Shown in pieces: positions 48,300 through 52,292 of a stretch of DNA of 64,000 nucleotides. This DNA comes from Methanosarcina thermophila TM-1. Lineage in GTDB: Archaea; Halobacteriota; Methanosarcinia; Methanosarcinales; Methanosarcinaceae. The stretch's first letter is position 1. Each line of letters opens with the position of its first letter. Under the pieces are notes generated by a model, which saw only the letters and a list, made by a program, of their open reading frames with translations, did not search any database and was not told where the DNA came from. The stretch is from assembly GCF_000969885.1 (NCBI RefSeq), contig NZ_CP009501.1, positions 620,001 through 684,000 on the forward strand. The letters are read 5' to 3'. A program made the position numbers and the translations under genes.

Positions 48300-49151
48300 T
48301 TATATCAGATTTTTGGGCTGTTTATGTGAGGGCAGCACAGGCAGCTTAATAGTGTTTATAAGGATTGGGCTTTGAATATCCTTTGCCCTTTCAATCACAA
48401 GTCCTTTTCCTTTCTGGGTGAGGGCAAAAAGCGGAATTGCAGCCGCAACCTGCACAAGAGGTTTTGCTAATTCCCGAATATATTTTGAAGCACAGCTGAT
48501 TACAATATCCGAATTTTCCAGAATACCCTCAGCTTCTTCTTTGCTAACTCCTGTAACATGTACCGCAATTATTATAAGGTCAAGCCCGAGTTCGTTTTCA
48601 AGCTTTCGCAACTCTTTGGCGGTTTCCGCAAAAGCCACGGTTACTGCAATCTTTCGGTACCCGAGTTCGGCAGCTTTCTTTGCTCCTCTAACAGGGTCAA
48701 TAGCCGCAGTTGAAGGATCGAGTACGGTTCCGCCAAATTTCTGGATTCCCTCGATTACACCGCCGATTGGCTCAGTTTCTATAAGGCCAGACATCCTGCC
48801 TCCTATGCCCTGGACAAGTGCAGGGTTGCTGGCAATGACAGTGCCTGCTCCGTCACAGGCAGTTACGGTCGTATCAAGAAAACCACGCCTGAGACAGGAC
48901 ATCATGATTTCCGATGCCCCGAAAGCCACATAGGTATCAAGCTCAAGGAGTTTTCGCCCTGGGGTAAACATTCCTACATCGCGAATCCGGGACTCGATGC
49001 TCTTTTTAACATCTTCCCTGGTGATATTCTGGACTCCTCTCAGCTTGGCAAAAAGAGGACACCACTCGATTTCCGGCTCCCCTACTTCTACAACCCTGCC
49101 GTCTTTTACGACCACTCTTGCTTTTCCCAGCAATTCCATTACATGAGGCAT
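48300..49151 (-). CDS. Methanogenesis marker protein 8 (DUF2099), copy 1
   Basis: This protein of about 283 residues starts M-P-H-V-M-E-L-L-G-K. It matches the family known as methanogenesis marker 8/DUF2099, present throughout methanogens and of unproven function. Features are the conserved W-C-P-L-F-A-K, the G-A-G-T-V-I and G-G-R-M-S-G-L loops, and I-S-C-A-S-K-Y near the C-terminus. It has no membrane segment. A GTG three codons upstream is also open. The 5' flank consists of three 15-bp tandem repeats with only a weak GAGTG ribosome binding site. A paralogue lies at 51444. Confidence 0.8.
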   Translation of the reverse strand: MPHVMELLGKARVVVKDGRVVEVGEPEIEWCPLFAKLRGVQNITREDVKKSIESRIRDVGMFTPGRKLLELDTYVAFGASEIMMSCLRRGFLDTTVTACDGAGTVIASNPALVQGIGGRMSGLIETEPIGGVIEGIQKFGGTVLDPSTAAIDPVRGAKKAAELGYRKIAVTVAFAETAKELRKLENELGLDLIIIAVHVTGVSKEEAEGILENSDIVISCASKYIRELAKPLVQVAAAIPLFALTQKGKGLVIERAKDIQSPILINTIKLPVLPSHKQPKNLI

Positions 49152-49195
49152 ATAATACACTCTATTATAATATACTCTATTATAATCACTCTATT
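49152..49195 (-). repeat. Three tandem 14-15-bp repeats forming the promoter/leader of marker 8 copy 1
   Basis: On the minus strand the unit AATAGAGTGTATTAT recurs three times (49152-49166, 49167-49181, 49182-49195), ending at the start codon. Each copy carries a TATA-like and a GAGTG-like element, so promoter and ribosome binding site are embedded in the repeat. Confidence 0.6.
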
Positions 49196-49494
49196 AATTT
49201 TTCATTCTGGCGATGACAATTCCATCACAATACATTTTGTTAATAAATCTGCTAAACATAAGAAATGCTGTGCTATTAAGTATGAGAAATAAAGTTGGAT
49301 ACAGATAATGCCATGAGGTTTACCTGTTCTTTCCTCTAAGGTATTCATTTATGCAATATCTGATATGTTAACATGGATAAGGAGCAGAATGATAGATGCA
49401 GGCGATAAAGCCGTTAAAACAAATGATAAAATTGAGATAATCAGGTGAGGATGACGAAACTGAAATAATGAAGCTGAAATAAAAAATACAGGAT
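49196..49494. other. Intergenic region between MTH865 and marker 8 copy 1
   Basis: Nothing recognisable apart from AT-rich sequence. It must contain the end of the MTH865 transcript and upstream promoter elements of marker 8 copy 1. Confidence 0.3.
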
Positions 49495-49734
49495 TTATAT
49501 CCCTGCTCTATCTACTATTGTGTCTGCAACCTCTTTTGCATTCTTGAACGGAAAATCCTCTGCAGTCAGCAGTTTACCTGCTTCTCCGGCAGTAACTTCA
49601 AGGTCTCCTGCTTTGCATGTAGTGTCTGCACCCGCTGGAAAGGCAGCAAGCAATTCTTCAGGTGTGTTTATGGGAAACTTTGCATCTTTAAGCCCTGCAA
49701 CAATCTGTCTGTGAATCTCATCTCTTACAGTCAT
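49495..49734 (-). CDS. MTH865-family protein
   Basis: This 79-residue protein matches the MTH865 family of small archaeal helical proteins with an EF-hand-like fold but no calcium loops. It reads [11 protein letters not shown], then [12 protein letters not shown]-x-G, and ends in an amphipathic helix (A-K-E-V-A-D-T-I-V). It has GAGGGA before the ATG. The function of the family is unknown. It is preceded by an unusually long purine-rich leader. Confidence 0.85.
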
Positions 49735-50010
49735 TGTTTATCCCTCTGTTCTCTTGTTCTTTTGCTTTTCTTTGCTTTTCTTTTCCTTATTTTCTTTTAT
49801 TTTTTCTTTGTTTTCCTTTTTTTCCTTATTTTACTATTTTTCTGTTATTTTGGCTCCTTTTTGCTTTTTTCGTTTTTCATTCTCCTCGTTTTTCGTTCCT
49901 CGTTTTTCTCTTTCCTTGTTTTTCGTCTTCCTTCTCGTACTCGTCCACAGTTACTTTTCTGCTTCTTTAAAGTTAGATATTAGCGAGGAAAATGGAATAA
50001 ATCTTCTACA
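49735..50010 (-). promoter_or_regulatory. Long purine-rich 5' leader of the MTH865 gene
   Basis: On the minus strand about 270 nt between the predicted start site and the ATG consist mostly of A and G (runs such as AAGGAAAAGAAAAGCAAAG). As RNA it would be unstructured and rich in Shine-Dalgarno-like GGA motifs. The composition looks like slippage-expanded sequence. Confidence 0.4.
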
Positions 50011-50030
50011 ATCTAATATTATCAGGTTAT

Positions 50031-50079
50031 TGATATATACTTAATCGGCATTTGAGTGTAGTTACTACACTCTAGTGTA
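50031..50079 (-). promoter_or_regulatory. Promoter of MTH865 with upstream palindromic operator
   Basis: On the minus strand GTATATATCA (50031-50040) is a strong TATA box with CGATTAA as BRE. Directly upstream, GAGTGTAG-TTA-CTACACTC (50054-50072) is a perfect 8-bp palindrome with a 3-bp centre, and a further AGTGTA (50074-50079) makes three AGTGTA half-sites in a row. The position just upstream of the BRE is typical of an archaeal activator site. The regulator encoded at 50289 is the obvious candidate to bind it. Confidence 0.5.
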
Positions 50080-50288
50080 TTGCAGCATTCCTTTGTAATC
50101 AGACTGGAACAGGACTGGATTTCTGTAATAAGAGGAATGAGTTTGATGGGAGGAGCTTGATATGAAAAAAGACAGAGAGAATTTATTGAGAAACAGTAAA
50201 AAGTTTCGACTATCCCGAAAATAGTAGCAGAAATTCAGCAATTTTGCAGTTAATGATTAAAATAATAATTTCGACCTGGAAAGAGAAA

Positions 50289-51146
50289 TCAAATCGGGCT
50301 CTTTTCCCCGGCTCTGGAGAGTAACTCTGCGGGCTTCTGCACCTGGGATGTTTGAAGTGAAGCATAGATCTCGTTTAAGCCTTGCAGGATTTTGAAACCT
50401 TTTTCAGTAATCATATAATCTCCTCTTTCGTGCTGTTGCATTATCAGTCCGCTAGCGATGAGTCTCTGGAGATGGAAAAGCAGGTTTCCTCCTCTAAGGC
50501 CTGTCAGCTCGGAAAAAGCCGAAAAACTTTTCGTTTCAAATGCAATGGCTTTAAGCATCTCAAGACGCTGCGGGTTTGAGACCGGCTCAAGGATTTCGCT
50601 CATAACAGCGCAGGTCTTAAGGGCTGCAATGCTGGGTTTCTGCTCCTGATTTTCTGCATAAATTTTCATGGAGCGCATTAAATTGACTTGTTTTACCAGC
50701 AGGCTTGAGACTTCGGAAAAGCATTTTTCACATTTACTGTAAGGGGCTCCGCATCTCAATTCTTCAAGTTGTTTTTTACTGTTTGAGATCAAATTGTCCT
50801 CGACATTACTTCGTTTTATCAGTTCTGCATTCTGCCTCAGGACAGCTGTAAATGCCTGGGTGCAGCTTTCCTTTTGAGGGCACTTCTTTATCATGTTCCA
50901 TTCAAGCCCGGTGTCGATATCTTCATAAAGGTGATTGAGAAGCGCATTTGAGTAGTTTTCTCTCAGGCTCTCGAAGGCAGCTTCAAAACGCAGCCTGTTG
51001 GTATATTGCATAACTTTCTTAATGTCATTATGCATCTCGGAAAGTTTTTCCTTTATAGCCTGCACTTCCACCATTTCCTGGGTCTCAGAGATCGCCTGGC
51101 TCTCAGGTTGTTTTTCCTTCTTACGTCCGCTGTTTCTATTATTCAT
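50289..51146 (-). CDS. Winged-helix regulator with N-terminal cysteine-bearing helical domain
   Basis: This protein of about 285 residues starts M-N-N-R-N-S-G-R-K-K; a longer frame to 51266 is unlikely because it starts at an unsupported TTG. Residues of about 20-180 form a helical, partly coiled-coil domain with C89 and C95 (K-C-P-Q-K-E-S-C) and C132, C139, C142 (R-C-G-A-P-Y-S-K-C-E-K-C), a possible metal or Fe-S site. Residues of about 185-260 are an ArsR-type winged helix (N-P-Q-R-L-E-M-L-K-A-I, recognition helix G-G-N-L-L-F-H-L-Q-R-L). There is no clear ribosome binding site. It is probably a redox- or metal-responsive regulator of neighbouring genes (inferred). Confidence 0.75.
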   Translation of the reverse strand: MNNRNSGRKKEKQPESQAISETQEMVEVQAIKEKLSEMHNDIKKVMQYTNRLRFEAAFESLRENYSNALLNHLYEDIDTGLEWNMIKKCPQKESCTQAFTAVLRQNAELIKRSNVEDNLISNSKKQLEELRCGAPYSKCEKCFSEVSSLLVKQVNLMRSMKIYAENQEQKPSIAALKTCAVMSEILEPVSNPQRLEMLKAIAFETKSFSAFSELTGLRGGNLLFHLQRLIASGLIMQQHERGDYMITEKGFKILQGLNEIYASLQTSQVQKPAELLSRAGEKSPI

Positions 51147-51246
51147 AATTTTTATGTATTCGCTTCTATTATTAAAGTTTCTGCTACAACTTTTAAGGTC
51201 ATTCGAATATACAGGTCGCGCAGGCTGAAGGTGCAGTCCAGAAACT

Positions 51247-51443
51247 TGACTAAAGTGCCTTCCCAAGAAAAGAATGAGGTAAAAAGGGAAAGGGAAAATA
51301 AAAAGGGAAACAAAAAGGAAAAAACAAAATTAATAGAAGAATAAACTAAAGAGAAAAAATAAAAAACACAGAATAATAAAAACAAAGAGTAACAAAAACA
51401 AAGAATAATAAAACAAAGAATAAAAAGAAAGTATAATTCGTTT
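51247..51443 (-). terminator. T-rich terminator of marker 8 copy 2
   Basis: On the minus strand the sequence after the marker 8 stop is almost uninterrupted T-runs (CTTTGTTTTATTATTC repeats). This fits oligo-T termination and isolates the regulator gene downstream, whose promoter must lie at the end of this tract. Confidence 0.5.
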
Positions 51444-52292
51444 TTACTTCAACTCTCTTGGCTGCTTGTTTTCAGGCAGCACCGGCAGAGGCATGGTATT
51501 TATCAGAATCGGGCTTTTGATATCCTTTGCCCTTTCGACTACAAGTTCCTTTCCTTTCTGGGTAAGGGCGAAAAGCGGGACCGCAGTTCCCACCTGAGCG
51601 AGCGGTTTTACAATGTCCCTAACCCACTTTGAGGCGCAACTGGTTGTGATATCAGCGTTTTCAACAAGAATCCTGGCTTCTTCTTCGTTAAAACCTGTGA
51701 TATGCACACCAATTATTATAAGGTCAAGCCCGAGTTCGGATTCAAGCTCTCGCAACTCTTTTGCGGTTTCTGCGAAAGCCACGGTTACTGCGATTTTTTT
51801 GTATCCCAGTTCAGCTGCCTTTTTCACGCCTGCAACCGGATCTATTTTCGCAGTCGAGGGGTCAAGCACAATCCCGCCGCGCTCTGTAATCCCATTGATT
51901 ATTCCGTCAATCGGCTCGGTTTCGACAAGCCCTGACATCCTGCCTCCCATGCCCTGAACAAGGGTGGGGTTATTGGAAATTACTGTTCCTGCACCTTCGC
52001 AGGCGGTCACGGTTGTATCAAGCAGACCCCTGCTCAGCCCTGTCATCATGACTTCCGACGCCCCGAACCCTACAAAGTCTTCAAGTTCAAGCCTGCGTTT
52101 ATCCGTGAACATCCCGAAATCGGCTATCCTGAATTCCATATTTTTCCTTACTTCTTCCGGGGTTATCTTCTGGATTCCGCGTATCTTGGCAAAGAGAGGG
52201 CACCAATCGATTTCAGGCTCCCCGACTTCAATAACCTTCCCATCTTCTACGACTACTCTTGTTTTTCCAAGCAATTCTATTATATGAGGCAT
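51444..52292 (-). CDS. Methanogenesis marker protein 8 (DUF2099), copy 2
   Basis: This 282-residue paralogue of the protein at 48300 is highly similar over its whole length (M-P-H-V-I-E-L-L-G-K-T-R-V-V-V, W-C-P-L-F-A-K-I-R-G, G-M-G-G-R-M-S-G-L, T-S-C-A-S-K-W). The start ATG has GGAG upstream. Two copies flanking MTH865 and the regulator suggest a segmental duplication with insertion or a functional cluster. Cytoplasmic; biochemical role unproven. Confidence 0.82.
   Translation of the reverse strand: MPHIIELLGKTRVVVEDGKVIEVGEPEIDWCPLFAKIRGIQKITPEEVRKNMEFRIADFGMFTDKRRLELEDFVGFGASEVMMTGLSRGLLDTTVTACEGAGTVISNNPTLVQGMGGRMSGLVETEPIDGIINGITERGGIVLDPSTAKIDPVAGVKKAAELGYKKIAVTVAFAETAKELRELESELGLDLIIIGVHITGFNEEEARILVENADITTSCASKWVRDIVKPLAQVGTAVPLFALTQKGKELVVERAKDIKSPILINTMPLPVLPENKQPRELK

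Follow-up and report, generated by a model that had tools for sequence, protein, structure and literature searches.

The MTH865-family gene of Methanosarcina thermophila TM-1 carries, directly upstream of its putative BRE/TATA, a 33-bp element with three half-sites, which is conserved in a fixed register to the promoter and co-occurs both with this gene and with the gene of a winged-helix regulator. That regulator is encoded nearby, at 50289 of the window (the whole 64,000-nucleotide stretch of DNA analyzed here), and we consider it likely that it binds the element as its operator, most probably activating MTH865. The target belongs to the family by its match to PF07747 (E-value 4.6e-32; 110 bits vs. 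a gathering score of 25) and also matched the solved structure 1iio (E-value 1.1e-28). MTH865 is without known function, its genes are among the most highly expressed of Methanoperedens plasmids, and the portion of that study available to us names no regulator for it (PMC9674854).

The original prediction had described a palindrome plus another AGTGTA beside the MTH865 BRE/TATA, and we found both at the positions given in Table 1. On the plus strand the palindrome continues as TAGTGTA, so that the minus strand reads, in order, TACACT-AG-AGTGTA-GTAAC-TACACT-CAAATGCC-GATTAAG-TATATATC. All three half-sites, which are identical to one another in the TM-1 genome, lie upstream of the MTH865 BRE/TATA on the minus strand; the centers of the inner two are 11 bp apart, and the outer one sits 8 bp further, across a 2-bp gap. 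The operator abuts the BRE, and its center is about 26.5 bp above that of the TATA box. Following archaeal promoter rules, we infer that 50033–50047 functions as BRE and TATA box.

Table 1. Features of the predicted operator and its surroundings (positions within the window).
Feature	Position	Strand	Basis or remark
MTH865-family gene (PF07747), 79 aa	49495..49734	-	Pfam match; solved relative 1iio
Putative MTH865 BRE/TATA, minus-strand sequence CGATTAAG-TATATAT	50033..50047	-	Near-invariant in 15 genus orthologs
Putative TATA box of the MTH865 gene	50033-50039	-	
Predicted 33-bp operator, TACACT-AG-AGTGTA-GTAAC-TACACT-CAAATGCC	50047..50079	-	Matrix and gap-free alignment, 15 genus orthologs
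Exact 8+3+8 palindrome, GAGTGTAG-TTA-CTACACTC	50054..50072	.	Sequence reading, genome search
Palindrome part GAGTGTAG	50054-50061		
Palindrome part TTA	50062-50064		
Palindrome part CTACACTC	50065-50072		
Inner half-site AGTGTA	50055-50060		
Inner half-site TACACT	50066-50071		
Third half-site AGTGTA, BRE-distal	50074..50079	+	Column reads TRYAST in relatives
Regulator gene: helical N-terminal domain with four invariant Cys, C-terminal ArsR-like winged helix	50289..51146	-	Alignment, model, domain searches
Methanogenesis marker 8 copy 1 (TIGR03275)	48300..49151	-	Neighbor, outside the regulon
15-bp repeats before marker 8 copy 1	49151..49194	-	Candidate second operator, rejected

A genome-wide search, which had been proposed as a check on the palindrome, located it, allowing up to three mismatches, in four places of the 3.13-Mb genome (one exact, three with 3 mismatches), while its reversed control gave 12; the 19-bp palindrome is accordingly unique to this site, being neither frequent in unrelated places nor a dispersed repeat. 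Within the 64-kb window the operator scored 26.8 with a leave-one-out matrix, vs. 7.4 for the next best position. We found no further match to the operator and BRE together at up to three mismatches in the TM-1 genome, and the BRE/TATA string by itself had one other match, at two mismatches. On these searches, MTH865 would be the single recognizable target of the operator in TM-1. The 7-mer GAGTGTA was not enriched in the window (six occurrences vs. 3.25 expected, a number reached in 13 of 100 shuffles), and it is because of its conservation across genomes that we regard the element as non-random.

To follow the element within the genus we used a set of 30 Methanosarcina genomes, TM-1 included, 15 of which carry an MTH865 ortholog with at least 80% identity. 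In all 15 the element aligned without gaps at a fixed distance from the BRE/TATA, with TACASTGGAATGCATTAACTACATTYCAGTGCCGATTAAGTATATATC as the majority sequence of the operator. As the distance from the TATA box to the ATG varies from 119 to 309 bp among these orthologs, the conservation of the operator is local. The longest leader, of 309 nt, is that of TM-1 (119–165 nt in the 14 relatives), and its added length corresponds to a low-complexity tract rich in purines (minus strand, 49760–49960). The claim of three half-sites rather than two was borne out: in the third one, TRYAST, the T, A, and T at positions 1, 4, and 6 are fixed in 15/15 sites, with a single site ending in AAT instead of AST, and by this conservation we judge it to be a genuine part of the operator. 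The half-site sequence itself differs, being AGTGTA in TM-1 and mostly AATGCA or AATGTA elsewhere. A change in the recognition helix as the cause of this difference was unsupported, as the corresponding stretch of the regulator, GGNLLFHLQ, is unchanged.

We then searched the 30 genomes with a joint operator–BRE pattern, allowing up to three mismatches, and obtained 32 matches in 19 genomes and none with the reversed control. By our own assignment, 14 of the matches precede MTH865, 11 precede a gene for a small two-CxxC protein, and 7 are located in genomes G016 and G017; the pattern misses the MTH865 site of G010, which the alignment of 15 orthologs includes. An earlier pattern, GGAATGYA-N5-TRCATTCC with two mismatches, was discarded as too loose, with matches in 30/30 genomes and several counts near those of the control. 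A match to the joint pattern was present in 17 of the 18 genomes encoding a regulator with at least 60% identity, vs. 2 of the 12 without one (p = 2e-5, ignoring relatedness). Genome G004 has the regulator and no recognizable site. The seven operator–promoter units of G016 and G017, where a close regulator is absent, include L125, L126, L139, L140, and L144; these five, which we examined, stand before apparently decayed remnants or no clear gene, and the promoter may have spread there through duplication.

The second class of sites came up when the matrix built from the 15 sites was run over the loci then in hand, as its one other class of matches lay upstream of regulator orthologs that do not adjoin MTH865. 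At such loci the element is found in a divergent promoter, in the same register to the BRE/TATA, which would drive a two-CxxC protein of 39–44 residues (truncated to 28 in G019), for example MVKCGICGGEAPKQPCITEEGNCDLCGKKVALAEE. In G003 the promoter of this gene keeps the element even though the gene is far from the regulator (L103). Next to the regulators of G004, G005, and G028 the sites have diverged past recognition by the matrix, and no site with a score of at least 3 was found for the two-CxxC copies of G014 and G020 or for the second copy of G012. Neither Pfam nor NCBIfam offered a confident family for this 40-residue protein, which is highly conserved in Methanosarcina (L040–L042, L046, L047, L147–L149, L152–L154, and L156, among others). 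As a second target in the TM-1 genome itself the gene was rejected, no match to it having been found there.

Looking past the genus, we scanned 84,980 species genomes, found 125 relatives of the regulator, and analyzed the best 80 of these 125 loci. An MTH865 reading frame, detected in distant loci with a purpose-built profile, was present in 50 of them, adjacent and divergent in 45. The titles of the best 80 of the 125 relatives name Methanoperedens, Methanolobus, Methanococcoides, Methanohalophilus, Methanothrix, and Methanogenium, as well as bins labeled Methanobacteriaceae and Methanomassiliicoccus, metagenome labels that are possibly wrong. We scored the 310 bp preceding each of 55 distant regulators with a matrix derived exclusively from Methanosarcina sites. 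A score of at least 10 was reached at 38 of these loci, the other 17 falling below 10; of 936 control windows taken from these loci 8 reached it, and after column shuffling none of five matrices reached it at any of the 55. L182, whose regulator and MTH865 genes do not adjoin each other, and L214, a fragment at a contig edge, were omitted from this test. The 12 loci of presumed paralogs, chosen by rank (L215–L226), all scored below −5, and inspection by eye of seven paralog upstream regions revealed no common operator, save for a site-like stretch upstream of one relative from G017 (44% identical, with a stop).

An even sample of 119 genomes of the phylum gave a similar pairing of genes. Thirty genomes matched the regulator profile, 19 of them at an E-value of 1e-80 or less, a cut placed by visual judgment where the E-values jump from 3e-81 to 6e-55; setting aside G018 and G024, whose matches are a paralog with ~40% identity, left 17. 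MTH865 lies within 700 bp of the regulator in 16 of these 17 genomes, divergently in 15 and co-directionally in TM-1, vs. none of the 11 genomes with weaker matches. The best matrix match was located 108–127 bp from the match start, on the opposite strand, for 14 of the 17 regulators and at 80 bp for one more. Five of the 17 sites scored at least 10 and several keep well only the BRE-proximal half, so the pairing of the genes is the stronger evidence at such depth. The full dyad appears clearest in the Methanosarcinaceae and nearer relatives, and a placement of the operator between MTH865 and a divergent regulator is apparently the ancestral layout. Not every MTH865 gene would be under such control: of the 43 sampled genomes in which PF07747 matched, 27 lack a close regulator next to MTH865, and none of the second MTH865 copies analyzed (54–72% identical; L016–L030) matches the matrix at a score of 9 or more.

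The arrangement is also found on two Methanothermobacter plasmids, pFV1 (L257) and NZ_CP113502 (L258), where the MTH865 gene has the operator before its TATA box, in the same place and with a good dyad (ACTGTACTTAGTACATT); on both, regulator sequence adjoins the site and is read in more than one frame. The predicted regulator site beside the MTH865 BRE/TATA, read by the product of the gene at 50289, thus gains support from co-occurrence in the genus and in methanogen families, and from the presence of site and MTH865 on both plasmids.

We also analyzed 65 distinct sites for symmetry. Complementarity was 55% about the expected dyad axis and 45% about the next best of the axes tested, and the excess of pairing beyond the column composition was small (34 of 1000 shuffles were as high). 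Strong base-pair covariation across the dyad, which we had expected, was thus weak, suggesting that both half-sites are kept through shared constraint and not through visible compensation. A TATA-like anchor was set on 42 of the 45 divergent loci, 7 of these 42 being visibly mis-anchored, and 40 of the 45 were kept for the test (L161, L164, L197, L200, and L205 were dropped); as the TATA box was picked via the right half-site, the conservation of that half is partly selected.

The regulator gene had been placed near the element, and its 3′ end is ~210 bp away. A structure model (pLDDT 81, pTM 0.45) gives the protein an N-terminal domain made up mostly of helices and, at the C terminus, a winged helix, in an arrangement made uncertain by the low pTM. 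The winged helix is nearest to ArsR-type proteins, e.g., BigR and NolR (best Foldseek value 8.2e-4), and HTH_5 of Pfam was found in 43 of 44 relatives at an E-value of 0.01, which identifies it as an ArsR-type winged helix. An NCBIfam metalloregulator model matches 44/44 relatives at an E-value of 0.01 or less, with the window regulator under the curated cut-off of that model (17.9 vs. 55 bits). Four cysteines, C90, C96, C140, and C143 (numbering of window:50289-51149), are invariant in 44/44 aligned relatives and are likely the sensor, responding to metal or to thiol/redox state. In a tree that took three of the 12 presumed paralogs, the Methanosarcina regulators form one supported group apart from L216 and L219, and L224, the third paralog, falls elsewhere on a long branch. 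Autoregulation by way of the operator was rejected for TM-1, as no such site was found in the region upstream of its regulator gene, where the best matrix scores of two scans were −8.0 and −5.6. That region (51147–51200) and the regulator upstreams of L147–L210 share a second conserved stretch near the ATG, approximately TGACYTTTAAAGKT...GAAACYTTTWA, which may be the BRE/TATA of the regulator gene, with a leaderless start.

We propose that a dimer of the regulator would read the inverted half-sites AGTGTA and TACACT, whose centers lie one helical turn (11 bp) apart, the spacing anticipated if a winged-helix dimer binds along one face of the DNA. The third half-site, 2 bp further out, could be occupied by an additional subunit or by part of another dimer. 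From its position at about −53, against the BRE, the regulator would most likely recruit TFB/TBP and switch MTH865 on, with the four cysteines of its N-terminal domain sensing metal or thiol/redox state; in several Methanosarcina the operator would also serve the promoter of the two-CxxC protein. A wider picture, which we offer tentatively and think rather less likely to hold than not in its entirety, is that of a cysteine-sensing switch kept with essentially one target, MTH865, across methanogens of classes I and II and ANME archaea and disseminated in part by plasmids, in the form of a regulator–operator–MTH865 cassette, with the zinc-ribbon-like 40-residue protein captured as a second target in Methanosarcina, and MTH865 and the mini-protein acting as effectors in the response to metal or redox stress. 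The plasmid cassette in this picture is weakened by the broken frames of the regulator on both plasmids.

The same regulator at the same site might instead repress, blocking TFB/TBP at the BRE and leaving the DNA upon oxidation or metal binding, as ArsR-type proteins do. The likeness of its DNA-binding domain to ArsR/SmtB repressors, the end of the 33-bp element at the BRE, and a good TATA box that looks able to work unaided are all compatible with this, but we consider it unlikely: the half-sites are wholly upstream of the BRE, the usual position for archaeal activators and that of EarA and Tar as far as the consulted parts of those reports describe them (PMC5512572, PMC6737238), and repressors more often overlap the BRE/TATA or the start. 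This position is the reason for which we favor activation. That the palindrome is bound by another factor, with the regulator gene as a bystander, is quite improbable. Binding by this protein is read from sequence, and in several Methanosarcina its gene is not adjacent to MTH865; yet those non-adjacent regulators adjoin another copy of the same element, save for the drifted copies, regulator and element co-occur across distant lineages, and the loci of presumed paralogs lack the element. We give still less weight to the idea that the inverted repeat acts as RNA, e.g., as a terminator of the regulator transcript, which would fit its position past the stop codon of the regulator gene, on that gene's strand, but not the keeping of the element before MTH865 where the upstream gene is divergent or different, nor its fixed register to the TATA box.

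It is equally hard to credit that the regulon takes in marker 8 copy 1. The original prediction had noted the same GAGTGTA in the 15-bp repeats before that gene and suggested that one regulator could bind both places. The repeats (units 49151–49165 and 49166–49180, with a 15-bp period) and the shared GAGTGTA do exist, but they are no operator, as the best matrix score at 49100–49260 is −7.5 vs. 26.8 at the operator, and binding of both places by one regulator is contradicted. Moreover, we examined 100 bp of upstream sequence from each of 15 other marker-8 genes without finding GAGTGTA, TACACTC, GAGTATA, or ATAGAGT. When stretches running up to the ATG were compared by eye, without alignment, RGGTG (mostly AAGGTGTG or AGGGTGTG) was seen immediately before the start codon in 14 of the 15, likely a Shine-Dalgarno-like ribosome-binding site, and the TM-1 GAGTGTA falls in this segment; the exception is the closest marker-8 relative, L228, which reads GAGAGTGAAGTGTATTTAT and comes from a genome with only a 40% identical paralog of the regulator. 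In the window the MTH865–regulator pair is flanked by two copies of marker 8 (48300–52292). Genomes G006 and G018, whose marker 8 is 93 and 88% identical, have the two copies side by side, ~165–175 bp apart, and no MTH865 match was found in either, so the pair was either inserted in TM-1 or lost in G006 and G018.

MTH865 has a solved structure, 1iio, and no known function, and the signal of its deeply conserved, nearly single-target candidate regulator would tell when the cell needs the protein. The predicted operator is compact, includes a third half-site at a constant spacing from the BRE, and lends itself to phylogenetic testing in archaea, and a regulon of two genes, MTH865 and the 40-residue two-CxxC protein, is experimentally approachable in Methanosarcina strains that allow gene removal.

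Regulators of this kind are known in archaea. EarA, the winged-helix activator of the archaellum in Methanococcus maripaludis, has four 6-bp sites directly upstream of the BRE and is thought to aid the recruitment of TFB, according to the part of the report that we consulted (PMC5512572). The operator described here is likewise immediately upstream of the BRE/TATA. The target of EarA is the fla operon, with a weak BRE; we liken the two systems by the position of their sites, and among the NCBIfam matches of our regulator no model is named EarA. The 6-bp EarA consensus is reportedly TACATA, close to the TACATT half-site of the operator. Tar (TK0271) of Thermococcus kodakarensis also binds a palindrome upstream of the BRE/TATA and activates in vitro, but its site is TGGACA-N8-TGTCCA, it serves three operons for amino acid synthesis, and the portion of the report at hand describes no third half-site (PMC6737238). 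The ArsR/SmtB family (BigR, NolR, SmtB) shares the fold of the DNA-binding domain, whereas the window regulator has an extra helical N-terminal domain with the four invariant cysteines. MsvR is a redox-linked winged-helix regulator of methanogens, and 2 of the 44 relatives match its NCBIfam model weakly (best E-value 8.7e-4). A V4R sensor domain defines MsvR, which has a different binding box; no V4R was found among the Pfam families of the 44 relatives at an E-value of 0.01. A literature search that scarcely covered subscription journals yielded no account of the regulator, the operator, or their link to MTH865. Thus, one-component regulators whose sites lie above the BRE are an already known kind of archaeal system, and what appears new here is this instance of regulator and operator, its breadth, and its nearly single-target character.
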